From assembly GCF_003344965.1 (NCBI RefSeq), contig NZ_CP031194.1:4836001-4900000 (forward strand): a stretch of DNA of 64,000 nucleotides, in the 5' to 3' direction. Under the pieces are notes generated by a model. It was not told the DNA's origin and made no database searches. It saw only the letters and a list, made by a program, of their open reading frames with translations. Each line of letters begins with the position of its first letter. The first letter of the stretch is position 1. The position numbers and the translations under genes were made by a program. Below, piece after piece: positions 1,657 through 53,266 of the stretch. This stretch comes from Streptomyces paludis (GTDB lineage: Bacteria; Actinomycetota; Actinomycetes; Streptomycetales; Streptomycetaceae).

Positions 1657-1675
1657 GGTCGGCATCTCCTTCCGT

Positions 1676-1858
1676 AGACCGCCTACCGGGTTAGCTGTCG
1701 GGTTCGGGCGGAACGGAAGGCTGCCCTACGGGCCTGGCGTACGGCGGACGTACGGCCCGATTCACCCCGGTGGTGCAGAGTGGGTCCCCGGTTCCGGGCC
1801 TCCTTGGGGGGAGGCCGAATTCGGCGTGGGCCGCCCGCTCGGCGTGGATCGCCAGGGG
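1676..1858 (-). promoter_or_regulatory. c-di-AMP riboswitch (ydaO/yuaA type)
   Basis: Read on the minus strand, this leader contains the conserved blocks of the ydaO class in order: GCCGAATTCGGCC, then AACCGGGGACCCA, then GGGGTGAATC, then GTAGGGC, and finally CGCCCGAACCCGACAGC followed by TAACC..GTAGGCG. It ends about 10-20 bases before the start of the C40 peptidase-like gene. In Streptomyces this riboswitch class sits in front of cell-wall hydrolase genes (rpfA, NlpC/P60, M23) and turns them down when c-di-AMP is high. I see no clear intrinsic terminator between aptamer and start, so the control mechanism is undecided. Confidence 0.9.
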
Positions 1859-6578: not shown

Positions 6579-6671
6579 CAACTTCTCTCTCGCCTCGGCA
6601 GCAGAAGCAGAACCAGGGTTGTCCGGAACTCGTCCTGATCGGAAGGGTCCCGGAGGAAAGCAGTGGCCGCG

Positions 6672-6701
6672 ACTGTACCCGGCGGTATGCGACGGCGACA
6701 A
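6672..6701 (-). promoter_or_regulatory. Possible promoter of the M23 peptidase gene
   Basis: Minus strand TTGTCG - 18 bases - TACAGT, about 90 bases upstream of the GTG start. The fit to the HrdB consensus is fair. Confidence 0.4.
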
Positions 6702-7199
6702 TCTTCCGAGAGTTTTGCGCGTTGAGGAAACGGGCATTCGGCCGTGTTTCGGCAGTCTGCGGACGCAGCCTTGGCCCTACGTTCGATAAATGTTCGATCA
6801 ACTGGCCCGGGATGAACGGTTGTCAGGGTCGGAAGACGGGCGCGGATCCGTCGAATTTGCCGCCTCCGGCGTCCAGATGTTCGATATGCGCCGCGTCGCA
6901 CGCCGCGTCCGTACGGGGGGCTCCGCCCCGCGCCGAGCCGCTCCGTCACGGAGCCGTTCCGCCGTGCCGCGCGGCCGGCGGCACGGTGGAACGGCCGCCC
7001 GTGCGGCGACTTTCGCTGCGGCTTCCCTCGGCCCCCCGGCCCCGCCGGTCGGCCGACCCGGTCGGCGGCGGGATCGAGTGGTGACGGAACGCCGCAAAGC
7101 GAACATGTCGCAGGTGTGATTTCCCCCTCGGGGGCCTCCGCGAAACGGCGGGGTGCGGGATGCTGAGGATAACGTTCGTTCACTACGGCGCCGTCGACG
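6702..7199. other. Gene-free divergent region
   Basis: About 500 bases between the M23 gene and the mutase-subunit gene. It holds a direct repeat GTTCGAT (6781-6787 and 6792-6798), a short CCCCC/GGGGG hairpin near 7123-7134, and a -10-like TAACGT at 7170-7175 that may serve the rightward gene. No coding frame with normal codon bias was seen and no known RNA motif recognised. Confidence 0.4.
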
Positions 7200-9494: not shown

Positions 9495-9543
9495 GCGGAC
9501 TCCTCCGTATCGGATCCCGGCCCGTGCCGGGAGCAGACAGGGC

Positions 9544-9725
9544 CTGGACGAGTAAGTCCGAAGTCCCGTCTGCCCGGCGGCGCCCAGCACGCACGCTCGC
9601 CGCGTTCCCGAAATGCCCTAGTAGCTCCGCTACGAGGGCACCCCGGCGCCTTGCGATCGCACGCACCGGACACCGCCGGGCCCGCCCCAGGGGCGGACGA
9701 CGCTACTTCGGACTTACTCGTCTAG
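9544..9725. repeat. MITE-like palindromic repeat, full length (copy B)
   Basis: 182 bases with 21-bp terminal inverted repeats differing at one base (CTGGACGAGTAAGTCCGAAG left; the complement of CTAGACGAGTAAGTCCGAAG right). The core shares GCACGCACGCTCGCCGCGTT and CTTGCGATCGCACGCACC with copy C at 50524-50704. A central hairpin (GCCCTAGTAGC / GCTACGAGGGC) is kept in copy C as a hairpin of different sequence. It fills the gap between the truncated SWIM gene and the DUF5691 gene. Confidence 0.85.
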
Positions 9726-32301: not shown

Positions 32302-33849
32302 ATGGGATCCACGGTCGAGTACGACTACGTCGTCGTCGGGGGCGGCACGGCGGGCTCGGTGATCGCCTCCCGGCTCACCGAGAACCCGGACCTCGACGTC
32401 GCCGTCATCGAGGGCGGCCCCTCCGACGTCGGCCGCGACGACGTGCTGACGCTGCGCCGCTGGATGGGACTGCTCGGCGGTGAGCTGGACTACGACTATC
32501 CGACCACCGAGCAGCCGCGCGGCAATTCGCACATCCGGCACAGCCGCGCCCGCGTCCTCGGCGGCTGCTCCTCGCACAACACCCTCATCGCGTTCAAGCC
32601 GCTCCCCTCCGACTGGGACGAGTGGGCGGCGGCCGGCGCCGAGGGCTGGGACGCGGGCGCGATGGACCCGTACTTCGACCGGCTGCGCAACAACGTCGTG
32701 CCGGTCGACGAGCGCGACCGCAACGCCATCGCCCGCGACTTCGTCGACGCGGCGCGGCGCGCGCTCGACGTCCCGCGTGTCGAGGGCTTCAACCGGGAGC
32801 CGTTCCACGAGGGCGTCGGCTTCTTCGATCTCGCCTACCACCCCGAGAACAACAAGCGCTCCTCCGCCTCCGTCGCCTATCTCCACCCCTTCCTCGACCG
32901 GCCCAACCTCCATCTGCTGCTGGAGACTTGGGCGTACCGGCTGGAGCTGACGGGCAGCCGCGCAACCGGTGTGCGCATACGGTCGGCCGATGGCGCCGAG
33001 ACGCTGGTCCGCGCCCGCCGCGAGGTGATCGTCTGCGCGGGCGCCGTCGACACACCGCGGCTGCTGCTGCACTCGGGCATCGGCCCCCGCGCCGATCTGG
33101 AGAAGCTCGGCATCCCGGTCGTCCACGATCTGCCGGGCGTCGGCGAGAACCTGCTCGACCACCCCGAGTCGGTGATCGTCTGGGAGACGGACGGGCCGAT
33201 ACCGGAGAACTCCGCGATGGACTCCGACGCGGGTCTCTTCGTACGGCGCGACCCGGCCGCCGACGGGCCCGACCTGATGTTCCACTTCTACCAGATCCCG
33301 TTCACCGACAATCCGGAGCGGCTGGGGTACGAACGCCCCGCGCACGGTGTGTCCATGACCCCGAACATCCCCAAGCCGCGCAGCCGCGGCCGGCTTTATC
33401 TGACGAGCGCGGACCCCGAGGTCAAACCAGCCCTCGACTTCCGCTACTTCACCGACGAGGACGACTACGACGGCCGTACCCTCGTGGACGGCATCCGTAT
33501 CGCACGGCGGGTCGCGGCGGCCGAGCCGCTGGCACACTGGCTGAAACGGGAGGTCGCCCCCGGGCCCGAGGTCACCTCCGACGAGGAACTGAGCGAGTAC
33601 GCCCGTAAGTGCGCGCACACCGTCTACCACCCTGCGGGCACCTGCCGGATGGGCGCGGTGACCGACGAACAGGCCGTCGTGGGGCCCGATCTGCGGATCC
33701 GGGGGCTCGACTCGATCCGTATCGCGGACGCCTCGGTCTTCCCGACGATGCCCGCGGTCAACCCCATGATCGGGGTCCTCATGGTCGGTGAGAAGTGCGC
33801 GGAACTGCTGACCGGTGGGACCGGCGACGACGAGGGGCTGAACCGATGA
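32302..33849 (+). CDS. Choline oxidase-like GMC flavoprotein
   Basis: 515 residues, Shine-Dalgarno AAGGAG. N-terminal FAD site [24 protein letters not shown], where His92 matches the residue that carries FAD covalently in Arthrobacter choline oxidase; GMC signature APGVKK-like loop replaced by [17 protein letters not shown]; and the catalytic His and Asn in [13 protein letters not shown] and PAVNPMIG. The family oxidises choline to betaine aldehyde and, in the oxidase subgroup, on to glycine betaine with O2. Four-base overlap (ATGA) with the transporter ATPase gene. The upstream gap repeats GTATCCACCGCACACC twice. Confidence 0.87.
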
Positions 33850-35069
33850 GCGAAGGCAACGGAAACAGCGAAAGCAGCGCGAGCGACGGCGTTCCGGGTA
33901 CGGATACGGGGGCGAGCCCGCGCCCCGAACCCGTGGAAGTTCCCGAGGCACTTGTAACACCCGCAGCAGCCGAAGCGCCCGAAGTCTCCGAACGACCACC
34001 GGTGTTCGCCCTCCGCGGCCTCTGGAAAGTCTTCGGCCCCCAGGCCGACGCCGTCCCCCACGACCCCGCGCTCGCCGCCCTCGACCCCGCCGAACTGCGG
34101 GCCCGTACCGGCTGTACCGCCGCCGTCCGTGATGTCTCCTTCGACGTCCGCAAGGGCGAGGTCTTCGTCGTCATGGGGCTGTCCGGCTCCGGCAAGTCCA
34201 CGCTCGTACGATGTCTCACCCGGCTCATCGAGCCGACCTCCGGCGCCCTCACCATGGATGGCGAGGACGTCCTGGCGATGGACCGGACACGCCTGCGCGA
34301 ACTGCGCCGCCACCGCGCCGCCATGGTCTTCCAGCACTTCGGGCTGCTGCCGCACCGCTCGGTGCTCGACAACGTCGCGTACGGCCTGGAGATCCAGGGC
34401 ATGGCCCGCGCCGAACGCCGCGCCAAGGCCGCCGAGGTCGTCGGCAAGGTCGGCCTCGAAGGGCTGGAGGACCGGCGCCCCGGCCAGCTCTCCGGCGGCC
34501 AGCAGCAGCGGGTGGGGCTGGCGCGGGCGCTTGCCGTGGATCCTCAAGTCCTGCTGTTCGACGAGCCGTTCAGCGCGCTCGACCCGCTGATCCGCCGCGA
34601 CATGCAGGAGGAGGTCATCCGGCTGCACCGCGAGGAGCGGCGCACGATGGTCTTCATCACGCACGACCTGACCGAGGCGCTGCGCCTCGGCGACCGTATC
34701 GCGCTGATGCGCGACGGCCGCGTCGTACAGCTCGGCACCCCGGAGGAGATCGTCGGCCGGCCCGCCGACGCGTACGTACGGGACTTCGTCCGCGATGTGC
34801 CGCGCGAGCAGGTCATCACGGTGGGCGCCGCCATGCGCGCCGCCGGTCCCGGTGACGGCGACGCGGGCCCGGAGCTGGCGCCGACCGCGACCGTCTCCGA
34901 GGCGATCGAGGCGGTCGCGCGCTCCGGTGAGGCGGCGGCCCGCGTGGTCGACGGGCGGGGCGGCCTCCTCGGCGTCGTCGACCGGGAGCGGCTGCTCGGT
35001 GTGGTGGCGGGGACGGCGCGGATGCCGGAGACGGCTCGGATGTCGGAGACGGGAACGGCGCTGCGATGA
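33846..35069 (+). CDS. proV: Glycine betaine/proline ABC transporter, ATP-binding subunit
   Basis: 407 residues from ATG 33846. An acidic N-terminal extension leads to the nucleotide-binding domain: Walker [11 protein letters not shown]-loop [12 protein letters not shown], signature [15 protein letters not shown], Walker [14 protein letters not shown], switch FITHDL. A single CBS-like motif ([29 protein letters not shown]) is at the C-terminus; in OpuA/ProV such domains sense ionic strength. Overlaps both neighbours by ATGA. Confidence 0.93.
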
Positions 35070-37039
35070 CCTCCGCCTCCCCGGCCGCGACCAAGGCCGC
35101 CCCGTACCCGGCGGGCCTGCTGGCGAACCGTACGGTCGTCGTCGGCAAGCTGCTGCCCTTCGCCGTGTTCGCCGCCGTCCTCGTACCCCTCGCGCTCACC
35201 CGCTGGTCGGGATCGACCGCCTGGCCCGACGCGCTCACCGTCGATCTCTCCGGTCCGCTCGGCCGCACCAGCGACTGGATCATCGACAACCGCGACCACC
35301 ACCCCCTCTTCCTCTACTTCTTCGGGCACGTCAGCAACGCCGTCGTGCTCTCCGTACGCGCCGTCTACCTGCTGCTCCTCGCCCTCGGCTGGGCCGGTGT
35401 GACGGCGGGCGCCGCGCTGATCGCGTGGCGGGTCGCGGGCGGGCGGCTCGCGGTCACCGCGGCCGTCGCGTTCGCCGTGTGCGGCGGGCTCGGCATGTGG
35501 GTGCCGACCATGCAGACGCTCGCGCTGATGGTCGTGGCCGTCACCGCGTCCGTGGTGCTCGGCGCGCTGCTCGGCCTCGCCGCCGGGCTCTCCGACCGGC
35601 TGTACCGCATGACGCGCCCGCTGCTCGACACCATGCAGGTGCTGCCCGCGTTCGCGTATCTGCTGCCCGTCGTGCTGATCTTCGGCATCGGTGTCCCGGC
35701 GGCGGTCCTCGCGACCGTCGTGTACGCGGCGCCGCCGATGGCGCGCCTCACCGCGCTCGGGCTGCGCGAGGCCGACGGCGGGGTGATGGAGGCAGTGTCC
35801 TCGCTCGGCGCGACGGCGAAGCAGCGGTTGCTGACGGCCCGGCTGCCGCTCGCCCGGCCGCGGCTGCTCCTCGGCCTCAACCAGACGATCATGATGGCGC
35901 TCTCCATGGCCGTCATCGCGTCCGTGATCGGCGCCGCCGGGCTCGGGGACCGCGTCTACCAGGCGCTGGCCTCGGTCGACGTCGGCGCGGCGCTCGCGGC
36001 CGGGCTGCCGATCGTACTGCTGGCGGTGGTACTGGACCGTACGACAGCGGCGGCGGGCGCGGGTACTTCCGACACCAACGGCGGTGACCTCCGGGGCGGT
36101 TGGCGCGGCTGGGCCGTCGTGGTCCTGGGGATCGGCGCCGTCGCCGTCGCCGGGCGGCTGGCGGGCCGGCTCGACTGGCCCGCCGGGGGTACGGTGCCGA
36201 TCGCCGAGCCGGTGAACCGTGTCGTCGACTGGATGACCGACCACCTCTACTCCGGCGTCCCGGTCGTCGGCGGCACCGCCGACTGGGCCGGCCACTTCAC
36301 CACCTGGGTCCTCGACCCGCTGCGCGGCGGCCTCCAGGCGCTGCCCTGGTGGGTCCTGCTGCTGGCGGTCGCGGCGCTCGCGCTGCTCATCGGTACGTGG
36401 CGGACCGCGCTGACCGCTGTGCTCGCCCTGGCCGCGATCGGTGTCCTCGGCGTGTGGAAGCCCTCGCTCGACACGCTCTCGCAGGTCCTGGCCGCCGTCG
36501 CCGTCACACTCGTCATCGGCTTCGCGGCGGGCATCGCGGCGGCGCGCAGCGCGCGGGTGGAGGCGCTGCTCAGGCCGGTGCTGGACGTCTTCCAGACGCT
36601 CCCGCAGTTCGTCTATCTGATCCCCGTCGTCGCGCTCTTCGGCGTGGGCCGCGCCCCGGCGGTCGCCGCCGCCGTGGTCTACGCGCTGCCCGCCGTCGTA
36701 CGGATCACCACACAGGGGCTGCGGCAGGTCGACCCGGCCGCGCTGGAGTCGGCGCGCTCCCTCGGGGCGACCGGCGTACAGCAGCTCCGGCAGGTCCAAC
36801 TGCCCCTCGCCGGACCGGCGTTGCGGCTCGCGCTCAACCAGGGCGTTGTCCTCGTACTGGCCGTTGTGATCATCGGCGGACTGGTCGGCGGGGGCGCGCT
36901 GGGCTACGACGTGGTGTACGGGCTGGCGCAGGGCGACCTGGCGACCGGGCTGGTCGCGGGCGCGGCCATCGTCTGCCTGGGGCTGATGCTCGACCGGGTG
37001 ACCCAGCCGGCCGAACGCGTACGACGGAAGGGCGCCTGA
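35066..37039 (+). CDS. proW: Glycine betaine ABC transporter permease, two permease domains fused
   Basis: 657 residues, about twice a ProW. Two homologous membrane domains each carry the EAA loop that meets the ATPase: [20 protein letters not shown] and [20 protein letters not shown]. Each half begins with a similar periplasmic-type segment ([25 protein letters not shown]). The fusion replaces a homodimeric permease. ATGA overlap with proV; the binding-protein gene starts 1 base after the stop. Confidence 0.92.
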
Positions 37040-37040
37040 C

Positions 37041-38006
37041 ATGCGTACGTACCGCACACTGACCGCCGCCCTCGTCTCGGCGGGCGCGCTGCTCGCCGTC
37101 ACGGGCTGCGGCGCGGCCGACATGACCAAGCAGGCGTCCCCGTACGCCAACGCGGGCGGCGCGAAGACCGTCACCCTCTCCGTACAGTCGTGGGTCGGTG
37201 CCCAGGCCAACGTCGCGGTCGCGGCGTATCTGCTGGAACACGAACTCGGCTACCGCGTCGACACCGTCCAGGTCGACGAGGTCCCCGCGTGGGACGCGCT
37301 CAGCCAGGGCCGGGTCGACGCCATCCTGGAGGACTGGGGCCACCCGGACCAGGAGCAGCGCTACGTCAAGGACAAGAAGACGATCGCGCCCGGCGGCGAC
37401 CTCGGGGTGACGGGCCACATCGGCTGGTACGTCCCCACGTACTTCGCCGAGAAGCACCCGGACATCACCGACTGGCGCAACCTCAACAAGTACGCCGGTC
37501 AGATGCGCACACCGGAGAGCGGCGGAAAGGGCCAACTGCTGGACGGCTCACCGTCGTACGTCACGAACGACAAGGCGCTCGTGGCCAATCTGGACCTCGA
37601 CTACCAGGTCGTCTTCTCGGGTTCCGAGGCGGCGCAGATCACCCAGATCAAGCAGTTCGCGAAGGAGCGCAAGCCGTTCCTCACGTACTGGTACACCCCG
37701 CAGTGGCTGTTCGAGAAGGTCCCGATGACGGAGGTGAAGCTGCCCGCGTACAAGGAGGGCTGCGACGCCGACCCGGAGAAGGTCGCCTGCGCGTATCCGC
37801 ACACGCCGCTCCAGAAGTATCTGAACGCGGACTTCGCGAAGGGCGGTGGCCGCGCGGCGGAGTTGCTGAAGAACTTCCACTGGACGACGGAAGAGCAGAA
37901 CGAGGTGGCGATGATGATCGCGGACCAGAAGCTCTCGCCGGAGAAGGCGGCGGAGAAGTGGGTGAAGGCGCACGGGGCGACGTGGAAGAAGTGGCTGGGG
38001 GAGTGA
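37041..38006 (+). CDS. proX: Glycine betaine-binding lipoprotein
   Basis: 321 residues. Lipoprotein signal peptide with lipobox VTGC (Cys24), then an OpuAC-type binding domain (LSVQSWVGAQANVAVAAYLLEHELGY, DAILEDWGHPDQ). Trp and Tyr residues that box the trimethylammonium group are expected in VQSWVGA, GHIGWYVP and TYWYTPQW. Last gene of the aldehyde dehydrogenase-choline oxidase-transporter operon. Confidence 0.93.
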   Translation: MRTYRTLTAALVSAGALLAVTGCGAADMTKQASPYANAGGAKTVTLSVQSWVGAQANVAVAAYLLEHELGYRVDTVQVDEVPAWDALSQGRVDAILEDWGHPDQEQRYVKDKKTIAPGGDLGVTGHIGWYVPTYFAEKHPDITDWRNLNKYAGQMRTPESGGKGQLLDGSPSYVTNDKALVANLDLDYQVVFSGSEAAQITQIKQFAKERKPFLTYWYTPQWLFEKVPMTEVKLPAYKEGCDADPEKVACAYPHTPLQKYLNADFAKGGGRAAELLKNFHWTTEEQNEVAMMIADQKLSPEKAAEKWVKAHGATWKKWLGE

Positions 38007-43700: not shown

Positions 43701-44228
43701 ATGGCCATCAACCGCATGAACCACGCAGTCCTGTACGTACGCGATGTCGAGCGCAGCGCCGCCTTCTACCGCGATGTGCTGGACTTCCGCGAAGTGATGT
43801 CCATGGCGGGCCGGGCGGTCTTCCTCCAGGCCCCCGGCTCCACCAACGACCACGACCTCGGCCTCTTCGCCCTGGGCGCCCAGGCCGGCGACAGCACCGC
43901 CGGCCGCACCACGGTCGGGCTCTACCACCTGGCCTGGGAGGTCGACACCCTCTCCGACCTGGAGGAATACCAAGCGCGACTCGCGGACGCCGGCGCCCTG
44001 GTGGGCGCCAGCGACCACGGCACCACGAAGAGCCTGTACGCACACGACCCGGACGGCCTGGAGTTCGAGATCGCCTGGATCATCCCCGCCAACCTCCTAG
44101 ACGACGAAGCCCGCGCCGCCCGCACCCGCATAGGCCCCCTCGACCTCGCCCAAGAGAAGCGCCGCTACGGAGCGGACACGCAAGGCGGCGTGGGCATCTC
44201 CATCCCGGCGCCGAGCGTTACGCCGTAG
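43701..44228 (+). CDS. VOC (glyoxalase/catechol 2,3-dioxygenase-like) protein
   Basis: 175 residues from ATG 43701. Two beta-alpha-beta-beta-beta modules: MNHAVLYVRDVERSAAFYRDVLDF (His as first metal ligand) and YHLAWEVDTLSDLEEYQARLADAG, ending KSLYAHDPDGLEFEIAW with the second His/Glu ligands. Single-domain dioxygenase or lyase type; substrate unknown. Convergent with, and overlapping by 11 bases, the SpaB_C-type gene. Confidence 0.85.
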   Translation: MAINRMNHAVLYVRDVERSAAFYRDVLDFREVMSMAGRAVFLQAPGSTNDHDLGLFALGAQAGDSTAGRTTVGLYHLAWEVDTLSDLEEYQARLADAGALVGASDHGTTKSLYAHDPDGLEFEIAWIIPANLLDDEARAARTRIGPLDLAQEKRRYGADTQGGVGISIPAPSVTP

Positions 44229-45240
44229 TCGTCACCGGCCATCGAGGATCAAGGATGGCCGTACGTGCCGCCCACGCCAGGGCGCTCTGCTGTCCTATGG
44301 ACAGGCCGAGGCGGTTCCAGTGGAAGATGATGTGGAGAGCCAAGACGCGGCGAAGCCCACGGTCGAGGGATCCGGAGTGGACCGCTTCGGCAAGCGCGAG
44401 GCCGGTGCCACGGAAGGCTTCGGCCCACGCGGCGACAGGTGCCAGCGGTCCTCCGTAGGCCAAGGCGGGGCCGTCCGCCGAGGTGTCGGCGAGGAGCAGC
44501 ACACGCAGGTGTTCAGCCATTTCGCGAAGGCGTTCCTTGGGGATGTCCCCGACGGCTGACCGCTGTTCCTCGCCGATGACGCGGTCCCACACATCGCCCT
44601 GCTCGTACCACTCAAGACCTGCGGCGCGCATCATGATCACGCAGAGCATGACGGACAACTCGCGGCGGCCGAGGGCGACATCGTCGCGCCTTGCCAAGGC
44701 GACGATTTCGCGGCTGTCGGCGACGAAAAGGCGGTGCGCGGCCGACATACCGGCACGGCCCCCGAAGGCAGCGGACTCCGGTTCGTAGATGCCGGGCCAC
44801 CATCGGCGCAGGTGGCCCCCTTCGACAAGGTGATCCAGCGCAACCCCGAGGTCGGTCCTGACGCCGATTCCGGGCTTGATGCGCAGCCGCAGGCGCCAGC
44901 AGGGATGCTTTCGGGTGAACCACCACGCGCTGATGGCGCCGCTCCCTTCGGCACCGCGCAGCAGCGGTTCCAGGTGGTTGACGGCCGTCTGCTCGGCGTT
45001 CGCCCACTCGGTGAACTCAATGCGGACCTGCCACCAATCGGTGACGGCGGCCTGCTCGGCGAGCGCCGCGTGCCCGGCTTGCCGGAACACCTCCACGGCG
45101 TCCGCCAGGTTTGTCGGTTCCACCCCTGACCGGTGTGCGGTGCCGACGACGTCCCGGCCTGCCAGGACATCGAGTACGGCCCGGTCGATGGGCCCGAGCG
45201 CCGGTGGCCGCGCAGCCTCAGTCAGTCGATCAGCAGACAT
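44218..45240 (-). CDS. Thiopeptide-type bacteriocin biosynthesis protein (SpaB_C domain)
   Basis: 340 residues from ATG 45240 (GGGACGC just upstream; ATG 45249 is an alternative). SpaB_C/TIGR03891-type domain: WWQVRIEFTEWANAEQTAVNHL, WWFTRKHPCWRLRLRIKP, YEPESAAFGGRAGMSAAHRLFVADS, and the C-terminal LSIGQQSALAWAARTA. In split lanthipeptide dehydratases and thiopeptide systems this domain eliminates glutamate from glutamylated Ser/Thr. The LanB here already carries such a domain, so this is a second copy. Overlaps lanC by 19 bases; last gene of the lanthipeptide operon. Confidence 0.82.
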   Translation of the reverse strand: MSADRLTEAARPPALGPIDRAVLDVLAGRDVVGTAHRSGVEPTNLADAVEVFRQAGHAALAEQAAVTDWWQVRIEFTEWANAEQTAVNHLEPLLRGAEGSGAISAWWFTRKHPCWRLRLRIKPGIGVRTDLGVALDHLVEGGHLRRWWPGIYEPESAAFGGRAGMSAAHRLFVADSREIVALARRDDVALGRRELSVMLCVIMMRAAGLEWYEQGDVWDRVIGEEQRSAVGDIPKERLREMAEHLRVLLLADTSADGPALAYGGPLAPVAAWAEAFRGTGLALAEAVHSGSLDRGLRRVLALHIIFHWNRLGLSIGQQSALAWAARTAILDPRWPVTTTA

Positions 45241-46436
45241 GCGTCCCATCCGGTGGTCGGTGAGTGGCCGGCGGCGAGGGTGGTCAGGGCGAGGGCGCAG
45301 CCGGCGTCTCCCTCCAGGAGTCCCCGGCCCTGGGGCGAGCCCGCTCGGGCGTTGGCGGTCAACGCCTCCCCCAACGGACCGAGCAGGTGGCTCAGTTGTG
45401 AGCCGGGAGCGTCACAGGATGCCCGGAACGCGGTCTGGTAGATGCCCGCCCAGCCGTGGCACAGGCTGGTGTCGGTGACCCGAGCCAGTTGTACGGGGTC
45501 GGACAGGCACCGGTACAGGGCATCCTCGTAGAAGTGCCGCAGGCCCCGGTCGCCGAGGGCGATACCGGCGAGCTGCCCGGCGCGGGCGATGCCGGGTGTG
45601 CCGTAACACCAGCTCGGCCGGGCCGGGCCAGGTGCGTGGATCCGCCCTGTGGTGACGTCCGAGACGGTGAGATGCTCGGGCCACCATGGTCCGGCGGCGC
45701 CTTCCTGACGCCACCTGTCCAGATGGGCGCAGAGGGAGAGAATGGCCTCCGTCTGCCCGTCCACGCTGATGCCGCGCCGCAGGGACTGGGCGAGGAGCAT
45801 CAGCGGGCCGGTCATGCCATGGGCCGCGCCGAAGTTGCCGTGTCCGCCGGGGAAGCGGGAGGAGTACGTACGGTGCGGGTCGTGACCGACCCACCAGCCA
45901 GGCATGCGGTGACCCTTGCCCGCGGACGGGTGCGTCAGGGAGACCAGGTAGCTCAGGATCCGCTCCAAGGCTCCGGCGCCGGGATCGCTGCGCAGGAAGT
46001 AGGCCCCTATTCCGGTGAGGCCGTAGAAGATGTCGTACTCGGCGAAGCCCGGCAACTCGCCGCGTAACATCCGGGCCGACGCGGCGTCGACGCGCCGGTT
46101 GGCGAGCGCCGTGACATGGGTGTGCAGCGTTGTCCACGCCGGGTGGTAGACGGCGTGGAAGGCGGCAGGCGCGGAATACAGGAGAAACGCGAGGGCAGGG
46201 GCGCCGAAGTAGAGGCCCGTGTGGTCTGCGCCGCTCACCCCGCCGGAGGCCGCCTGTCGGATCCAGCGGTGAGCCGTATGCCACGGCACGGGAAGCGTAC
46301 GGGCCCGTTCCACATGCAGCAGCGCGATGCCGGCCGCCCCGTCGGCCAAGGACTGGTCGCTCGGCTGCTTGTCGGCGGGCCGGGCCAAGTGCTCGGCGAA
46401 CTCATCGATCAGGCAGGACGCGTGAGTGACCGTCAT
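45222..46436 (-). CDS. lanC: Lanthipeptide cyclase LanC
   Basis: 404 residues from ATG 46436 (AAGGAGG). Zinc ligands of LanC present: Cys in SWCYGTPGIA and Cys-His in LCHGWAGI; also GHGNFGAAHGMTGPLML. Catalyses Michael addition of Cys thiols to dehydrated Ser/Thr in the precursor to form (methyl)lanthionine rings. ATGA overlap with lanB. Confidence 0.92.
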   Translation of the reverse strand: MTVTHASCLIDEFAEHLARPADKQPSDQSLADGAAGIALLHVERARTLPVPWHTAHRWIRQAASGGVSGADHTGLYFGAPALAFLLYSAPAAFHAVYHPAWTTLHTHVTALANRRVDAASARMLRGELPGFAEYDIFYGLTGIGAYFLRSDPGAGALERILSYLVSLTHPSAGKGHRMPGWWVGHDPHRTYSSRFPGGHGNFGAAHGMTGPLMLLAQSLRRGISVDGQTEAILSLCAHLDRWRQEGAAGPWWPEHLTVSDVTTGRIHAPGPARPSWCYGTPGIARAGQLAGIALGDRGLRHFYEDALYRCLSDPVQLARVTDTSLCHGWAGIYQTAFRASCDAPGSQLSHLLGPLGEALTANARAGSPQGRGLLEGDAGCALALTTLAAGHSPTTGWDACLLID

Positions 46437-49400
46437 GTCCGTACCTCCTTCTTGGCCGGAAAACGGCACAGGGCCGCGGCACGTGCGAGGCGGAGGGTCA
46501 CGGCCTCGGCACGCGGACCGACACCGAGAGCCCGTACGTGGTGCTGATGGAGCAGCGACCGTACGACCGTGAGCGGTTCACCCTGCTGTCCGGCCAGGGC
46601 CTCCCGGTAGGAACGCACAGCGACATCGCGTGCTTGCCAGGCTTGCGAGACGGTTCCCCCAGCGGGGAGCGAGGCCAGTAGCGACCATCCCCCGGGGGCC
46701 GCGAGCCCGCGAGCCTGGTCGCACAGCTCACGGTCCAGGTGCCCACCGCCTCGGGGCACGTTCTCGATGAGCCACTTCCCGCCCTGGTCCGCCGAGCCGG
46801 CCAGGGCCGCTGTCAGACCGACGACACTCGCGGCCGCGAGGGCCTGCGGAGCGACGGCACCCGTCTCCACGAGCCGGATCTGCGCAAGGGCCGCGGCGGA
46901 GTCGGCGGCGAAGACGCGGTGAGCGGCTTCCAGGGCAGCCGCACGTCCGTACCGGCCCGTCTGCGGTACGTACGTCTCCAGCGTGAGGCGGGAGACCAGC
47001 CGGCTCCGGCGCAGCCCTGCGGCCCAGGCGTTGACCTGCTCGGCGACTGTCCCGTACGTGCCGCTGTCGATGCGCAGGAACAGCGCGAGGTGCTGTCCGG
47101 CCTCGGGCCGGGCCATCTCGCGATGCCGGACGAACCACCACAGCGGGGCGTCGCCGAGAGCTCCGAGGAAGGTGGGCAGGTGACGGTCCAGGATCTCGCT
47201 GTAGCGATCGGGGTGTGCGTGCAGATGCGCACGCAGCACCGTTCCGGCGCCGGGCAGTTGGATATCCTCCTCGGCCGTCGCGATGGCCCGCCGGGGTGTG
47301 GGCAGCGTGACGGCGTCGGGTTGGGTATGAGTGAGGGGGAGCAGAATTTCGTGAGCGCGTCCGATCCAGCCGTACAGGTCGGGATCGGCCACTTCGCGCA
47401 GTTCCAGACGGCGGACGTCGTTGAGGCGGGAGCGCAACAGCCGCCGGTGTACGGGATGGGTCAGGTCGAGGGCGAGTCGTTGATCGAACTCGACCAGGGC
47501 GATCCGGTCCGGGACGCGCAGGCGCGTCCGCCAGGCGGTCAACGCTTCGTCCCAGGCCACGACCGACGCCACTCGTCCGGGAAGGTCCTCGGCCCTCAGC
47601 AGCCAGCGGGCCGGGGTCAGGATGGTCCGGCGATAGCGCACGCGGGGCAGGTACGGGAGCCGTCTTGCCGTGCCGAAATCGAACGGCTTGTAGATCGCAC
47701 ACCGGGCGTTGCCGAGCTCCGTCAGCAGCCGGGCCAGTGGTGGTGTCTGGATCCCGGCTTCGAGCGCGTGCAGCACCCGTACGTCGATCGGCCGGCCGGT
47801 GGAGAGCTGGACGAGATGGAAGCGGCGGGCGTCCGCTGTGACCGCGATGTCCGCCGGCCCGATCACGTGCTCGTCCGCGGCACGGTGCTCGCCCAACGCG
47901 ATGACGTCGGGGAGCAGTCGCGCGGTGCGAGTGACGTTCTCGTTGCGCCGGCGTCGGGGGCCGAAGGAGAGCTGCGCGGTGACCGCGTCAGGCCGGGAGG
48001 AGAGGTAGGTGCCGGCCAGAACGTCCTGGTGCGCGGGCGGCAGGAGGTGGGCGAACCGTCCCAGCATGCTGCTGCCGGGTCGGGGAACGCCGGTGAGCAT
48101 GAGCTGGAACGCGCCGCGCGCCAGATCGGCGGACGAGGACGCACGGATCTCGAAGGCGACCTCCGCGCGGGGAACGAGCGTCGGCCTCTCACTGCCCGCG
48201 GCGTCGGCGAGGCCGGCAACCACCGCGTCGGTCAGGACCAGCTCACCACGGTTCTCCATAAGCGCCTGCTGCACCAGGGCGAGCACCGCGTCATCGCGGT
48301 CGGTCACCTGCTTCGCGGCTCTGCCGCGCTCCGATCCGACGTACTCGGCCGGCCACCCGAGCCCGCTGTCGGCCACCAGTTCCAGCACCGGCACAGCAGA
48401 GCCGACGCCGTACCGGGCCCGGAAGCGCCGGTGGTAGTCGCGCCACTGCTGATAACCGTACGGCTGAGGGGAGAGCCGGTACAGCGCCGATACGGCGGCC
48501 TCGGCTTCCGCGACGACGTGCGCCGGGATTTGCACGTCGCAGTCCAGCGCGGTGTCGATGAGGAGAGGTACCGGGGCGGCGGAGGACTCCTTCGTCATCC
48601 GGTCGATGACCGCACTCAAGGTGCCGGTCGGCAGCGCTGGGGCGCGGCCGTTGAGGTCGTCGCGGATCGCGTACAGGACGCGCACCAGGTCTGCCACGTC
48701 CGGCAGGGTGTGGGCATCCGCCTTCTCCAGCTCGCCGCATACGTGGCCGAGGGCGTCCAGGGTGGTTGACGGCGCCCGCAGGCTGGTGATGAGCAGGTCC
48801 TGCGCGAGGAGATCGGCCAGAAGCGCGTCGATCCTCCCTCCGGCACCGGCCGGGAACATGGCGGTGAGCTCGGCACGCAGCTCTCCGTACGGAGTGGGGA
48901 TCCGGGCCGCTCGCATCGCGGCCTGTACGGTCCGGCGGTACGGCACGGACACCTCGACCGGCGCCATCAGACGGTCGCGGCCGTCTGCCGGAGCGCCCGG
49001 AGCGACGAGGCGGTCGCCGCGTACCTGTGCGGTGTTGTTGGCCACCACGGGCAGGCGTTCCAGCAGGTCCGGGCTGTCTTGCAAGCGCTGGACGATGTCA
49101 GCGATCCAGTCGGCGTCGGCGCGGACCACCTCCCGGTGTGTGTCATCCCACCGCACACGGACTGTCGCTCCGACCGATACCGGGGCTGTGCCCGCGAAGC
49201 GGCCGAAGGGGGTGGGCCGGTGCTGCCAGCGCAACAGGTAGGAGGCGACGGACAGCGCCGCGCGCCGGATCTGCTGCGGCTGGGTCCGCACCCCGCGTAC
49301 GACATCGCCCGCAGCCCGGTACAGGACGGGGCTGGCAGTGCGCACAGCGTCGCGGGTGTCCTCGTGCTGCCACACCCTGCCCAGCCACGACCGGGTGGCG

Positions 49401-49522
49401 GCCGGATCATCGAGATCGAGCGTGCGCGGTAGGTCGGCCGGTCCGGGGCGCGTCGTGGCGCGCAGCATCGCCGCACCCTGCCACCGGTAGTTGACGACTG
49501 CTCTGGAGGCCACGGGCAGCAC
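46433..49522 (-). CDS. lanB: Lanthipeptide dehydratase LanB
   Basis: 1029 residues from GTG 49522 (GGAAGGAA just before; GTG 49513 also possible). Full-length class I dehydratase: the N-terminal glutamylation domain with the family motif RPTPFGRFAG and the long central region, and a C-terminal elimination domain (PLWWFVRHREMARPEAGQHLALFLRI ... RLTLETYVPQTGRYGRAAALEAAHRVFAADS). Uses glutamyl-tRNA to dehydrate Ser and Thr. Only 48 bases separate its start from the left end of an insertion sequence, so its native upstream region has been replaced. Confidence 0.93.
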   Translation of the reverse strand: MLPVASRAVVNYRWQGAAMLRATTRPGPADLPRTLDLDDPAATRSWLGRVWQHEDTRDAVRTASPVLYRAAGDVVRGVRTQPQQIRRAALSVASYLLRWQHRPTPFGRFAGTAPVSVGATVRVRWDDTHREVVRADADWIADIVQRLQDSPDLLERLPVVANNTAQVRGDRLVAPGAPADGRDRLMAPVEVSVPYRRTVQAAMRAARIPTPYGELRAELTAMFPAGAGGRIDALLADLLAQDLLITSLRAPSTTLDALGHVCGELEKADAHTLPDVADLVRVLYAIRDDLNGRAPALPTGTLSAVIDRMTKESSAAPVPLLIDTALDCDVQIPAHVVAEAEAAVSALYRLSPQPYGYQQWRDYHRRFRARYGVGSAVPVLELVADSGLGWPAEYVGSERGRAAKQVTDRDDAVLALVQQALMENRGELVLTDAVVAGLADAAGSERPTLVPRAEVAFEIRASSSADLARGAFQLMLTGVPRPGSSMLGRFAHLLPPAHQDVLAGTYLSSRPDAVTAQLSFGPRRRRNENVTRTARLLPDVIALGEHRAADEHVIGPADIAVTADARRFHLVQLSTGRPIDVRVLHALEAGIQTPPLARLLTELGNARCAIYKPFDFGTARRLPYLPRVRYRRTILTPARWLLRAEDLPGRVASVVAWDEALTAWRTRLRVPDRIALVEFDQRLALDLTHPVHRRLLRSRLNDVRRLELREVADPDLYGWIGRAHEILLPLTHTQPDAVTLPTPRRAIATAEEDIQLPGAGTVLRAHLHAHPDRYSEILDRHLPTFLGALGDAPLWWFVRHREMARPEAGQHLALFLRIDSGTYGTVAEQVNAWAAGLRRSRLVSRLTLETYVPQTGRYGRAAALEAAHRVFAADSAAALAQIRLVETGAVAPQALAAASVVGLTAALAGSADQGGKWLIENVPRGGGHLDRELCDQARGLAAPGGWSLLASLPAGGTVSQAWQARDVAVRSYREALAGQQGEPLTVVRSLLHQHHVRALGVGPRAEAVTLRLARAAALCRFPAKKEVRT

Positions 49523-49570
49523 TTCCTTCCATCTGCCTACGGATGCAGGAGGCGGCGGCGTTTGAGGGGG

Positions 49571-50527
49571 CTAGGTCCTGTCCGGCGGATCATGTGACCT
49601 TCTGACCGGTCGCTCGTTGGTTCGGGTATGGGTCGGGGGGATTTGATGAACCGCGAGTGGTCGTTGCTGGAGCCGCATCTGCCATCTCTGGGTGGCCGGG
49701 GCGGCCGGTGGAACGACCACCGCACCGTGGTCAACGGGATCCTCTTCCGGGTCCGGACCGGTGTCCCGTGGCGTGACCTGCCGGAACGCTATGGCTCGTG
49801 GAAGACCGTCTATGAACGGCATCGCCGCTGGTCGGCGGACGGTACCTGGGACCGGATCCTGCACGCGGTCCAGGCCGACGCCGACCTGGCCGGGCGGATC
49901 GACTGGTCGATGATCGGCATCGACTCGACGTCCTGCCGGGCCCATCAGCACGCGGCCGGCGCCCGCAAGGCCCGTCCGCGGATCCCGAAAAAAGGACGAC
50001 GCCCCGGCACCACCGCCCCGACGAGGGACTCGGACGGTCCCGGGGCGGCCTGACCTGCAAGATCCACCTCGCCGGCGAAGGCGGTTGCCGCCCCATGGCC
50101 CTCCTGCTCACGCCGGGTCAGTGGGGCGACGCCCCGCAGATGGTCGAGGTCCTGGACCGAATCCGGGTCCCCCGGCCACGGGGCGGACGCCCCCGAACCA
50201 GGCCCGACCACGTCAGCGGCGACAAGGCATACAGCTCCCGCCGAAACCGCCGCTACCTGCGAAGACGCCACATCCGGCACACGATCCCGGAACCGAAGGA
50301 CCAGCGGGCCAACCGCCAACGCAGAGGCAGCAGCGGTGGCAGACCCGCCGGCTTCGACCGCGACCGCTACCGGCGCCGCAACGAGGTCGAGCGGACCATC
50401 AACCGGCTCAAGAACTCCCGCGCGGTCGCCACTCGTTACGACAAGCGGGCCTACGTCTTCCACGGCACCGTCACCGCCGCCGCGATCCGACTCTGGCTCC
50501 GCCAGTGATCCGCCGGACAGGACCTAG
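49571..50527 (+). mobile_element. IS5-family insertion sequence
   Basis: About 950 bases bounded by CTAG on both sides. Terminal inverted repeats GGTCCTGTCCGGCGGATCA (left, 49574) and its exact complement (right, ending 50524). One transposase gene read through a frameshift. The CTAG target and end sequence fit the IS5/IS427-type elements of Streptomyces. The right CTAG is shared with the adjoining MITE-like repeat (50524-50704). Confidence 0.9.
49628..50508 (+). CDS. IS5-family transposase, made by -1 frameshifting
   Basis: Two overlapping frames. The first (49628-50053, 141 residues) holds the DUF4096-type N-terminus MNREWSLLEPHLPSLGGRGGRWNDHRTVVNGILFR and the first catalytic Asp (MIGIDSTSCRAHQ). 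The second (frame -1, to 50508) holds DEGLGRSRGGLTCKIHLA, the second Asp in VSGDKAYSSR and the Glu in RRNEVERTINRLKNSRAVATRYDKRA. The frames meet at CCGAAAAAAGG near 49985-49995, a usual slippery site. The DDE triad is complete, so the element may be active. Confidence 0.88.
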
Positions 50528-50704
50528 GGCCTGTCCGACAAATCCCGCCTGGCTCGCGACGCCTGGCACGCACGCTCGCCGCGTTGTCGGGATCACCCCA
50601 GTACGTCCAGTACTGGGGCGACCCTCCGCCTTGCGATCGCACGCACCAGACACCGCGAGCCCCGCCCTACGGGCGGACGGCGCTATTTGCCGGACAGGCC
50701 CTAG
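50524..50704. repeat. MITE-like palindromic repeat, full length (copy C)
   Basis: 181 bases from CTAGGGCCTGTCCGACAAAT to ATTTGCCGGACAGGCCCTAG. Core blocks GCACGCACGCTCGCCGCGTT and CTTGCGATCGCACGCACC are shared with copy B (9544-9725); the central hairpin is CCCCAGTAC / GTACTGGGG. Its ends (CTAG + CCTGTCCG) resemble those of the abutting insertion sequence. Confidence 0.88.
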
Positions 50705-50714
50705 GCCGCTGCCG

Positions 50715-50743
50715 GTGGGCCGGGCGGATCACACCCGGCCCAC
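50715..50743 (-). terminator. Terminator or attenuator after the lanthipeptide precursor gene
   Basis: Perfect 10-bp stem GTGGGCCGGG / CCCGGCCCAC with a 9-base loop, 13 bases past the precursor stop on the minus strand. It would favour precursor message over the downstream enzyme genes, a common arrangement in RiPP clusters. Confidence 0.7.
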
Positions 50744-50756
50744 GGCGAAGGAGCCG

Positions 50757-50954
50757 TCAGGCCGGATCCTCGATGAACGAGCTGCATGCGGAGGCACCGT
50801 TCGCGCACGTCTGGCCGCAGCCGTCATTCGTGGCGCACATGAGCTTCCCGATCGGGTGGACGGCAACGACGATCTTGATGTCGAGCGGTGCGAAGTCGTC
50901 GTCCTGAGCGGCGCCGTCCGGCCGCGCGGCCAGTGCGGTAGGACCGTCGATCAT
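50757..50954 (-). CDS. lanA: FxLD-family lanthipeptide precursor
   Basis: 65 residues from ATG 50954 (GAAGAGAG eight bases upstream; a GTG at 50963 adds three residues). The leader has the acidic DDDFAPLDIKIVV block that carries the FxLD-like motif. The core region after HPIGKLM has four Cys and several Thr/Ser in the order CATNDGCGQTC, ANGASACSSFIEDPA, so up to four (methyl)lanthionine rings are possible. Asp residues in TNDG and EDPA are candidates for the methyltransferase. Too short for ordinary gene finders. No leader protease or exporter gene was found nearby. Confidence 0.88.
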   Translation of the reverse strand: MIDGPTALAARPDGAAQDDDFAPLDIKIVVAVHPIGKLMCATNDGCGQTCANGASACSSFIEDPA

Positions 50955-51011
50955 GGCGTTCACTCTCTTCCCGGTCTGGTGGAGCGGTGCATGACGACCT
51001 GACTCCGACGG

Positions 51012-52250
51012 CTATGCCGGGGGCCAGGAGAGCGAGATCCGGCTGTGGACCTTGTCGATGACCCGGCCACCGACGACCCGGCCACCCGCAATCAGGTCGT
51101 CGGGAGTGCCTGCCGGATAGACCCGGACGACGGGGCCGGGGCCGCCGCGGTGCTCGCGGTTCCAGTCGCGCAGGTGTCCGGCGACCTTGCCGGCAAGGGA
51201 TCCGGCATCGGAACCAAGGGCATGCACAGCGAACTCGACGTGCTTGTCATCCTCGGTGCGGCGGGTGGTGAGGTACGCGAAGCTGCCGCCCTCCACGGCA
51301 GCGAGGGCGAAACTTCTGTTGGCCGGGGCAACGATGCCGGTGTCCAGGTCGGGGTCGACGGCCATGATGCAGAACCCGGGCAGTGCGATCGCCAGGTGCA
51401 TCTGGAGCGTGTCCAGGAGCTCGCTGATACCGAGCGTGATGCCCGTCCAGAGCTCGACCCTGGGCGTACGGACCGCGTTGTCCAGGAGGCCAGGGTTTTC
51501 GGGCAGTCCGTCGTCGAACCGGAGGCCAATCTCCGGGGTGCCGGTGACGAGCAGCAGTTCCTCTTGATGAGCGGAAGCGCCCTGCATGGGCACGAAGCCG
51601 CACACCTTCGAGGACTCACTCTCCAAGTGGCCGTCAACCAGCGTGAAACCGAGGGCCCGGGTCAGGCCGCGTACCCGCAGTGGCACCACGAGGCGCCCGC
51701 CCGGTTTGAGCTGCTGGGTCCAGGCCGGCGGGATGTCCCAGGCCCCGGCGGTCACCAGGACGGCATCGACCTTTCCCACCCCGGGAATCGGCTCCGCGGC
51801 GTCCGCGGTGACCACACGCACGTGGCCGTAGCCGTTGCCGGCCAGGAGGCGTGCAGCCCGGGCGGTGACTTCCGGGTCGATGTCGACCGTGGTCACAGCG
51901 CCGTCCGGTCCCACGAGTTCCGCCAGATAGGCGGCATTGAGCCCGCCGGAGCCGATCTCCAGCACATGGTCTCCGCGCTGGACCCTGGCCTGCTCCAGCA
52001 TCATCGCCTGGATCTGCGGCGCGGATACCGAACTGAGCTGTACGCCGTGCCTGTCCACCTTCGTGACGAAGGCCGAGTAGACCTGGTAGGCCTCGTCCAG
52101 AGTGGCCCCCGGAGTGAACAGGTGGCGCGGGACCGTACGCATCACGGCTTCGATCCGGGGCGAGACGATCGTGCCGGCCGCGCGCAGTTCGTCAACAGCC
52201 TTGTCGCGCAGGGCGGTGGCGGCGTCTGAGTCGACGGTCGCATCGGTCAC
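51012..52250 (-). CDS. FxLD-system methyltransferase (isoaspartyl methyltransferase-like)
   Basis: 412 residues, GTG 52250 with AAGGA six bases upstream. The N-terminal half is a PCMT-type SAM methyltransferase: RTVPRHLFTPGATLDEAY, SSVSAPQIQAMMLEQA, SAM motif VLEIGSGGLNAAYLAELVG, and PPAWTQQLKPGGRLVVPLR. The C-terminal ~180 residues are the extra domain of the FxLD group. Homologues in lanthipeptide clusters O-methylate an Asp side chain of the ring-formed peptide, leading through aspartimide to isoaspartate; that this one does so is inferred. 58 bases upstream of the precursor gene on the same strand. Confidence 0.87.
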   Translation of the reverse strand: MTDATVDSDAATALRDKAVDELRAAGTIVSPRIEAVMRTVPRHLFTPGATLDEAYQVYSAFVTKVDRHGVQLSSVSAPQIQAMMLEQARVQRGDHVLEIGSGGLNAAYLAELVGPDGAVTTVDIDPEVTARAARLLAGNGYGHVRVVTADAAEPIPGVGKVDAVLVTAGAWDIPPAWTQQLKPGGRLVVPLRVRGLTRALGFTLVDGHLESESSKVCGFVPMQGASAHQEELLLVTGTPEIGLRFDDGLPENPGLLDNAVRTPRVELWTGITLGISELLDTLQMHLAIALPGFCIMAVDPDLDTGIVAPANRSFALAAVEGGSFAYLTTRRTEDDKHVEFAVHALGSDAGSLAGKVAGHLRDWNREHRGGPGPVVRVYPAGTPDDLIAGGRVVGGRVIDKVHSRISLSWPPA

Positions 52251-52414: not shown

Positions 52415-53266
52415 TCACGTCAGCGAGTCGGCGGCGGACGTGATCAGGCCACGGGCCTCGGCACCGTAGACGGCCATCTCCCGCAGCTCTGCGAAGGCCC
52501 TCATGTACAGCGCGACCTCACTGGGCGCGGTGACCGTGATCTGAGCGGACAGCAATTCCACATGAACCCGCTGCTCGTCAAAGACATTGAACGCTTCAAG
52601 CGTCCAGATGCCCCGCTCTCGCGCGGAGAGAGGGATGACGCCCAGGGAGACCGATGCCAGCGACATCACCGACAGCAGGTGCCCGAGCTGGCCGCCCATG
52701 GTCCGCACGTCCCCGATTTGGTAGCGCAGCACGGACTCCTCCACGACCAGAACGAATCGACGGTCGCCCCTGTGGAGAACCCTGGACCGGTTCATACGCG
52801 CGGCGACCGCCTCGGCGGTGTCGTCCGGTGCGCCGTGAAACCGTCCGACGGCCGACAACAGGGCGGAAGCGTAGGCGGGCGTCTGGAGCAGCCCGGGTAC
52901 CACATGCGAGGCGTACCCCCGGAAATGCCGGGTCCGTTCGTACAGCGGCACTCGGGACTCTTGCAGTCGGCGCAGCCCCGTGCGCTGGAGTCGCTGCCAC
53001 GCCACATACATGGAGTCGGCGGTGCGGGATGCCGCGATGATGTCGGCAGCCTGGTCGGCGACGCCGCAAACCTCGCACCATGTACGGATGTCGCTGTCCG
53101 ACGGCGGAGTGGCCGCGCTCTCCAGACGTGACGTCTTGGACTTGTGCCAGCCGCAGCGAGAAGCCAGCTCATGGCCCTTCAGCCCGGCATCCAAGCGCAG
53201 CTCACGCAGCCTCGCCGCGACAGCCTTGCGGGCAGTCTCGACGTTGGACGACGGGTAGGCGGACAC
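52415..53266 (-). CDS. XRE-family regulator with DUF5753 (Scr1-like) domain
   Basis: 283 residues, GTG 53266 (no good Shine-Dalgarno, start uncertain). HTH in RLRELRLDAGLKGHELASRCGWHKSKTSRLESA (about 18-50); the DUF5753 ligand-binding-like part begins FRGYASHVVPGLLQTPAYASALL. One of many WhiJ-like regulators of Streptomyces that pair with DUF397 and DUF6879 genes. It lies 165 bases upstream of the lanthipeptide methyltransferase gene on the same strand, and could control it. Confidence 0.85.
   Translation of the reverse strand: MSAYPSSNVETARKAVAARLRELRLDAGLKGHELASRCGWHKSKTSRLESAATPPSDSDIRTWCEVCGVADQAADIIAASRTADSMYVAWQRLQRTGLRRLQESRVPLYERTRHFRGYASHVVPGLLQTPAYASALLSAVGRFHGAPDDTAEAVAARMNRSRVLHRGDRRFVLVVEESVLRYQIGDVRTMGGQLGHLLSVMSLASVSLGVIPLSARERGIWTLEAFNVFDEQRVHVELLSAQITVTAPSEVALYMRAFAELREMAVYGAEARGLITSAADSLT

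Follow-up and report, generated by a model that had tools for sequence, protein, structure and literature searches.

In the olv system of Streptomyces olivaceus NRRL B-3009 (OlvA, OlvB, OlvC, and OlvSA), the methyltransferase OlvSA methylates the conserved Asp of the cyclized peptide, and the ester yields an aspartimide and then 70 to 80% isoaspartate; the main text of PMC13001092 names such products lanthimiditides. PMC10787088 counts, in its main text, 1305 lanthipeptide clusters that contain a PAMT-type methyltransferase, most with a TxDGC core. According to the main text of PMC7268733, a conserved Asp and a clustered gene for this methyltransferase characterize the four largest families of class I precursors, and stand-alone elimination-domain proteins beside full LanB proteins are remarked upon. 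Here, we analyzed 64,000 nucleotides of the Streptomyces paludis genome (contig NZ_CP031194.1, positions 4,836,001 to 4,900,000; the window), in which the minus-strand region 44218-52250 holds five open genes transcribed from right to left, for a methyltransferase, an FxLD-type precursor, LanB, LanC, and a stand-alone Lant_dehydr_C protein. The cluster is of the known, abundant lanthimiditide type (olv/coi, TxDGC core), but its full-length LanB belongs to a clade that has lost the lyase residues that hold glutamate.

The first gene of the operon (51012-52250, minus strand) encodes a 412-aa PIMT-like O-methyltransferase of the LanSA/PAMT type found in FxLD systems. It matches TIGR04364 at 524.8 bits (curated cut-off, 320) over profile positions 1-394 of 394, and its PCMT domain (residues 17-224) is followed by a C-terminal part of ∼190 aa. 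The precursor (50757-50954, minus strand) starts with ATG at 50954, is 65 aa long, carries the leader motif FAPLD, and matches TIGR04363 at 56.1 bits (curated cut-off, 30) over positions 1-37 of 37. LanB (46433-49522, minus strand; 1029 aa) combines a glutamylation domain (PF04738, 695.7 bits) with an altered lyase domain at residues ∼760-1015 (PF14028, 107.7 bits). The ATG of the LanC cyclase gene (45222-46436, minus strand; PF05147, 115.7 bits) lies at 46436 and overlaps the LanB stop codon (ATGA); its longest open reading frame (ORF) begins at GTG 46469. Last comes the stand-alone glutamyl lyase of the Lant_dehydr_C/SpaB_C kind (44218-45249, minus strand), which scores 198.9 bits against TIGR03891 (cut-off, 48) and also matches PF14028. 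Chance ORFs were ruled out, as curated family cut-offs were exceeded. The precursor has a core containing Ser/Thr and Cys and is encoded alongside LanB and LanC, which makes this a class I lanthipeptide cluster, with rings predicted from the genes. An initial annotation had proposed an FxLD-type class I cluster in which a four-Cys precursor with an FxLD-like leader is accompanied by LanB, LanC, a stand-alone SpaB_C protein, and a methyltransferase, and all of these proved to be present, open, and matched to their families. It had not noticed the mobile elements between the precursor and LanB genes, the altered LanB lyase site, or a second FxLD cluster in the same genome.

The precursor core, beginning at about C40, reads CATNDGCGQTCANGASACSSFIEDPA and contains four Cys. 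A homologue search of ∼5.8 billion proteins returned 39 precursors (38 besides that of the window), and the exact sequence occurred once, in this genome. The best-scoring other precursors were 74 to 75% identical over their full length, with some others reaching 82% over a part, and a sequence search of the PDB gave two weak matches only (E values of 0.08 and 0.84). The precursor had been described as unreported looking, which holds for its exact sequence in the database searched; the family itself is not new, having its own NCBI models, the many clusters counted in PMC10787088, and two members (olv and coi) reconstituted. All 39 precursors share A31, G36, K37, C40, T42, D44, G45, C46, G47, C50, S55, C57, S59, E62, D63, and P64, and the TxDGC motif is present in every one, in the window as T42-N-D-G-C46. 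This motif and a PIMT homologue with a C-terminal extension of >100 aa are together the sequence marks of the lanthimiditide/PAMT type. Because the cluster belongs to that type as defined in the main texts of PMC13001092 and PMC10787088, the earlier suggestion of an isoaspartate or aspartimide is well founded, with the product chemistry itself predicted.

We scanned GTDB species genomes and found 75 related loci. The five genes, in the order methyltransferase-precursor-LanB-LanC-lyase, were detected in 70 of the 75; two of the exceptions (L038 and L106) end with their contig, and three (L053, L054, and L066) keep the methyltransferase, the precursor, and at most a LanB fragment. Across 75 precursor rows, comprising the window and 74 loci (L088 was omitted, as its row shows the end of a longer frame), C40, T42, D44, G45, C46, G47, C50, S55, and C57 are identical throughout. 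At position 49, Thr occurs in 69 rows and Ser in 6; at position 59, 51 rows have Ser, 23 have Thr, and one has Leu. This conservation supports the four rings that had been predicted from the core. The ring map of mCoiA1 given in the main text of PMC9486935 (C47 to 43, C55 to 50, and C51 to 57), transferred by homology, predicts rings T42-C46, T49-C57, and C50-S59, which would leave C40-S55 as the remaining ring. C40 would then be the Cys of the extra ring of OlvA; its position is occupied by Asn in CoiA1 and in the precursor of the second S. paludis cluster (NLTDDGC). Acedo et al. in 2019 reportedly described a four-ring topology for OlvA. In one related precursor (L100), the core has a repeated CSTSA segment and thus extra Ser/Thr and Cys.

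With the sequences of NisB and MibB as landmarks for the lyase positions (NisB numbering), both of these proteins read Y-R-R-E-R where the window LanB reads H-A-F-Q-R. The canonical anti-lyase set of Arg784, Arg786, Glu823, Arg826, and His961 is therefore incomplete in the window, where the equivalents are A813, F815, Q854, R857, and H992. The R784/R786 pair is absent from all 75 window-clade rows, only one of which (L086) has an aligned Arg at 784, with Thr at 786. Position 784 is most frequently Asp (31/75) or Ala (18/75). Glu823 is changed in 74 rows (Gln in 54 and His in 15) and kept in L108. For comparison, we took LanBs from 40 further loci among the relatives; the LanBs outside the clade that have a lyase domain number 16 (coi-type, olv-type, and another group with a stand-alone lyase), and all 16 keep R, R, E, R, and H.

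The LanB tree was built from the N-terminal part, with the lyase domain excluded, by a quick method with support from the Shimodaira-Hasegawa-like approximate likelihood ratio test (SH-aLRT) only. It included the 14 of the 16 nonclade LanBs that were long enough (L118 and L139 were in the alignment only), and L122 and L145 were flagged as long branches that meet. Rows were labeled window-type by the Arg pair itself, and this label maps to one change, at a clade with SH-aLRT support of 99; on this tree, the lyase-site loss has a single origin. The clade comprises 78 rows, three of which (L037, L074, and L106) lack lyase columns; separate second pieces of L037 and L074 are also without the Arg pair. 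Its named records come from Streptomycetaceae, Nocardiopsidaceae, Thermomonosporaceae, Micromonosporaceae, Pseudonocardiaceae, Frankiaceae, and Promicromonosporaceae. The His961 or Arg826 equivalent was additionally lost in 11 of the 75 clade rows, by at least five changes on the tree, versus 0/14 among the other LanBs in the tree. In four other FxLD clusters (L125, L127, L134, and L140), the LanB frame spans ∼700 to 810 aa and shows no lyase match at its C terminus; the only lyase found there is fused to the methyltransferase. Together with the clade losses, these LanB sequences suggest that clusters with a syn-lyase can do without the LanB lyase. The precursors of L127 and L134 have LMCSTxDNC cores. 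In the main texts of the open-license literature that we examined, we found no description of an entire LanB clade that has lost the glutamate-binding Arg pair of its lyase and is coupled to a stand-alone lyase of the syn type.

According to the main texts of PMC9011353 and PMC9486935, syn-lyases carry Lys where anti-lyases have Tyr, are hydrophobic at the Arg826 position, lack a His961 equivalent, and keep the two glutamate-binding Arg. The stand-alone protein of the window (K114, R119, R121, E158, A161, and I308) agrees with the published syn-glutamyl lyase signature (SptBb/CoiSA(ED) type) at every position, which predicts syn-lyase activity. Across 71 lyase rows, K, R, R, and E are present in 71/71, the Arg826 equivalent is Ala in 70 and Val in 1, and the His961 equivalent is Ile in 67, Leu in 2, and gapped in 2. 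A PDB sequence search with this protein gave one weak match only (E value, 0.63). Its structural model was confident (predicted local distance difference test [pLDDT], 91.1), and the best fold matches were MadB and MibB, followed by a [4+2] aza-cyclase, NisB, and the pyridine synthases PbtD and TbtD. In the main-text account of PMC9011353, the only lyase used to make SapT is a syn-lyase, and the product has one lanthionine (Lan) and three D-allo-L-methyllanthionines (MeLan), so a syn-lyase can handle Ser.

Based on these observations, we propose a division of labor. LanB would bind the FxLD leader and move glutamate from Glu-tRNA onto T42, T49, S55, and S59. Since the LanB lyase domain has lost glutamate-holding residues, elimination would be carried out mainly or only by the stand-alone syn-type lyase, converting the two Thr to (E)-dehydrobutyrine and the two Ser to dehydroalanine. 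LanC would then close the four rings, and both Thr-derived rings would be D-allo-L-MeLan. The methyltransferase would methylate D44 within the T42-C46 ring to give an aspartimide that opens mainly to isoaspartate, and the leader would be removed by a protease encoded outside the operon. We consider this the best reading of the locus, in which LanB glutamylates, the syn-type lyase eliminates mainly or alone, and both Thr-derived rings have D-allo-L stereochemistry, and we put our confidence in it at about even. A broader proposal is more tentative and falls somewhat short of that: throughout a widespread actinobacterial FxLD clade, the full-length LanB would be a glutamyl transferase whose lyase domain, although retained under selection, no longer eliminates, and the stand-alone syn-lyase would perform all elimination, so that the four-ring isoaspartate scaffold, of the OlvA type, would have D-allo-L-MeLan at each of the two Thr sites. 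The LanB domain could then have been recruited for something else, for example, to dock the lyase or to pass on the glutamylated peptide.

Several points weigh against this division of labor, many of which fit an arrangement with two working lyases, as in the coi system of Streptomyces coelicolor A3(2). In such an arrangement, the window LanB domain would carry out anti-elimination at T42 and T49 through a glutamate pocket of different construction. The stand-alone lyase would act at one site, probably residue 59, where Ser hides the stereochemical effect. The equivalents of the catalytic His961 and of Arg826 are kept in the window LanB and in 64 of the 75 clade rows. The LanB C-terminal domain is under purifying selection, with a median ratio of nonsynonymous to synonymous substitution rates (dN/dS) of 0.297; the N part of LanB has a value of 0.246 and the lyase one of 0.190 (205/209 pairs of close relatives, which share rows and are not independent). 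Its model is confident (pLDDT, 93.2), with MibB as the best fold match (E value, 1e-11), followed by MadB and NisB. Given this selection and a model that matches LanB lyase domains, the domain has a function, and the dN/dS value and the confident model rule out decaying sequence. In the main text of PMC4341554, NisB R784A still gave seven dehydrations in vivo, whereas H961A gave none. The main text of PMC9486935 reports only mild impairment for CoiSA(ED) R51A and R53A, and among the loci analyzed here, Pro occupies the first Arg position in six of nine fused coi-type lyases; both argue that this fold does not absolutely require the Arg pair.

Further points concern the substrate. The division of labor proposed above requires the window syn-lyase to act on two Ser, and CoiA1-T57S was poorly processed, which the authors of PMC9486935 took in their main text as a hint that some syn-lyases prefer Thr. 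In the same account, mCoiA1 uses both lyases, CoiC needs (Z)-dehydrobutyrine (Dhb) at the first two Thr, and CoiC failed to close the rings when CoiSA(ED) made all three Dhb, so the window LanC would have to differ from CoiC. Residue 59 is Thr in the 23 precursor rows noted above, as at CoiA1 T57. The C40-S55 pairing is by exclusion, and we infer every chemical step and the stereochemistry. Against two working lyases, both Arg changed together across the clade (except in L086), usually with Glu823 and a local insertion, the R784 position often holds an Asp, and the His or Arg826 equivalent was lost repeatedly while the cluster was retained. On balance, we regard two working lyases as a serious but somewhat doubtful alternative.

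The operon may also be silent or unbalanced, which is compatible with either chemistry, that is, with a syn-lyase only or with two lyases. An IS5-family insertion sequence (IS; 49571-50527, plus strand) and a 177-bp element on its precursor side (50528-50704, no strand assigned) that resembles a miniature inverted-repeat transposable element (MITE) separate the methyltransferase and precursor genes from those for LanB, LanC, and the lyase, so that the genes could be intact and yet give little product. In the window, the precursor and LanB genes lie 1234 bp apart, versus an estimated 36 to 110 bp in 72 of 73 relatives and −28 bp in one; without both elements the distance would be ∼100 bp. The IS is 957 bp long with 22-bp perfect inverted ends, lies opposite to the operon, and carries transposase ORFs at 49628-50053 (NF033580, 140.3 bits; cut-off, 110) and 50095-50508 (109.5 bits). 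These ORFs are in different frames with an A-run between them, as in IS elements with programmed frameshifting. Seven copies of the IS at 99 to 100% identity, including that of the window, are present in the genome, which indicates recent movement. The MITE-like element has inverted ends and 28 genome matches, 9 of them (window copy included) full length or nearly so at 90 to 100% identity; it abuts the IS directly at a CTAG site. The recent insertion may uncouple expression of the two parts. All five genes nevertheless remain open with family matches over their full length, and IS elements can carry outward promoters. We consider a silent or unbalanced operon rather unlikely.

It is highly improbable that the stand-alone SpaB_C protein performs some other reaction, such as a thiopeptide-type [4+2] cyclization (a possibility raised by Walker et al. 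2020). In favor of it, the fold also matches PbtD, TbtD, and the [4+2] aza-cyclase named above. Against it, the best fold matches are MadB and MibB, the K/R/R/E residues are invariant in all rows, glutamate elimination has been demonstrated for a domain of this kind in CoiSA (main text of PMC9486935), and no obvious lyase would be left if the LanB domain is weak.

A Pfam scan of 58 ORFs, a subset of all those in the window, detected no lanthipeptide protease or exporter, in agreement with the initial annotation. The peptidase domains among these ORFs, NlpC/P60 (244-1665) and M23 (4764-6737), belong to cell wall hydrolase families and lie ∼37 to 43 kb from the cluster, and the transporter genes found form a set of the OpuA type (33795-38006). 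When the genes flanking the cluster in the window and 70 loci were grouped into families, the 25 largest all lacked a member from the window, and an upstream HTH-DUF5753 (helix-turn-helix) gene (52415-53266) was for this reason not counted as part of the cluster. Of the 70 related loci, 26 have, downstream of the lyase, a member of a family of ∼400-aa proteins, possibly similar to tetratricopeptide repeat proteins by eye; this family was not found beside the window cluster. Elsewhere in the window, the sole Rfam match, unrelated to the cluster, is a cyclic di-AMP riboswitch (RF00379, 65.9 bits; 1664-1836, minus strand) upstream of the NlpC/P60 gene. The segment 9524-15482 (plus strand) encodes AAA_5 ATPase, DUF5682, and VWA_CoxE genes and resembles a MoxR-VWA set, with a divergent DUF5691 gene at 7749-9590 (minus strand).

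The same genome contains a second FxLD cluster, which is coi-type (L128; ∼C1:1068570-1075530) and consists of a precursor, a LanB with intact lyase residues, LanC, and a fused lyase-methyltransferase. At L050/L135, a window-type cluster with a window-type LanB is directly followed by a coi-type lyase-methyltransferase gene, so that the two cluster types adjoin. Stereochemistry is important to lanthipeptide activity, and the literature predicts it from the lyase sequence; in the main text of PMC9486935, full-length LanBs are all predicted to catalyze anti-elimination. If the LanB of this clade does not eliminate, the anti-lyase rule would fail for a group that spans seven or more families of actinobacteria. 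The window type would then join the olv and coi types in a natural series with similar Ser/Thr/Cys patterns and different lyase sets, and a full-length LanB would be at hand for making and holding glutamylated peptides.

Compared with known systems, the window shares with olv an FxLD precursor, a full-length LanB, LanC, and a LanSA-type methyltransferase and, as a prediction for the window, the conversion of Asp to isoAsp inside the N-terminal MeLan ring (main texts of PMC13001092 and PMC9486935). The olv system is without an extra lyase, whereas the window has a stand-alone syn-type lyase and an altered LanB lyase site, which place it outside the olv type; OlvB is grouped with the canonical anti-lyases in the main text of PMC9486935. 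We judged the olv type from clusters with no extra lyase detected (L118, L122, and L145) rather than from the OlvA sequence. The coi system (CoiA1, CoiB, CoiC, and CoiSA), as described in the main text of PMC9486935, likewise has the methyltransferase, LanC, a full-length LanB with an additional syn-lyase, the conserved Asp, and ring pairs that can be mapped to the window, and its gene cluster encodes no protease. Its lyase is fused to the methyltransferase, whereas in the window the two are encoded apart, by the last and first genes of the operon, so the window cluster is not coi-type either. CoiB also keeps the lyase residues that the window LanB has lost, and CoiA1 differs in the Asn at the first Cys and in having Thr57 where the window has Ser59. 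The spt system of SapT, with a LanB split into SptBa and SptBb, has the same predicted logic in the main text of PMC9011353, in that one protein glutamylates, a separate syn-lyase eliminates, and all MeLan are D-allo-L. SptBa, however, lacks a lyase domain, whereas the window LanB retains one with altered residues, and that text mentions no methyltransferase for spt. In outline, the window has the same gene content as class I clusters that pair a full LanB with an extra elimination-domain protein, as described by Walker et al. 2020 and as category 3 of Sarksian and van der Donk 2022. The main text of PMC9486935 predicts anti-elimination for all full-length LanBs, whereas those of the window clade are without the glutamate-binding Arg pair.

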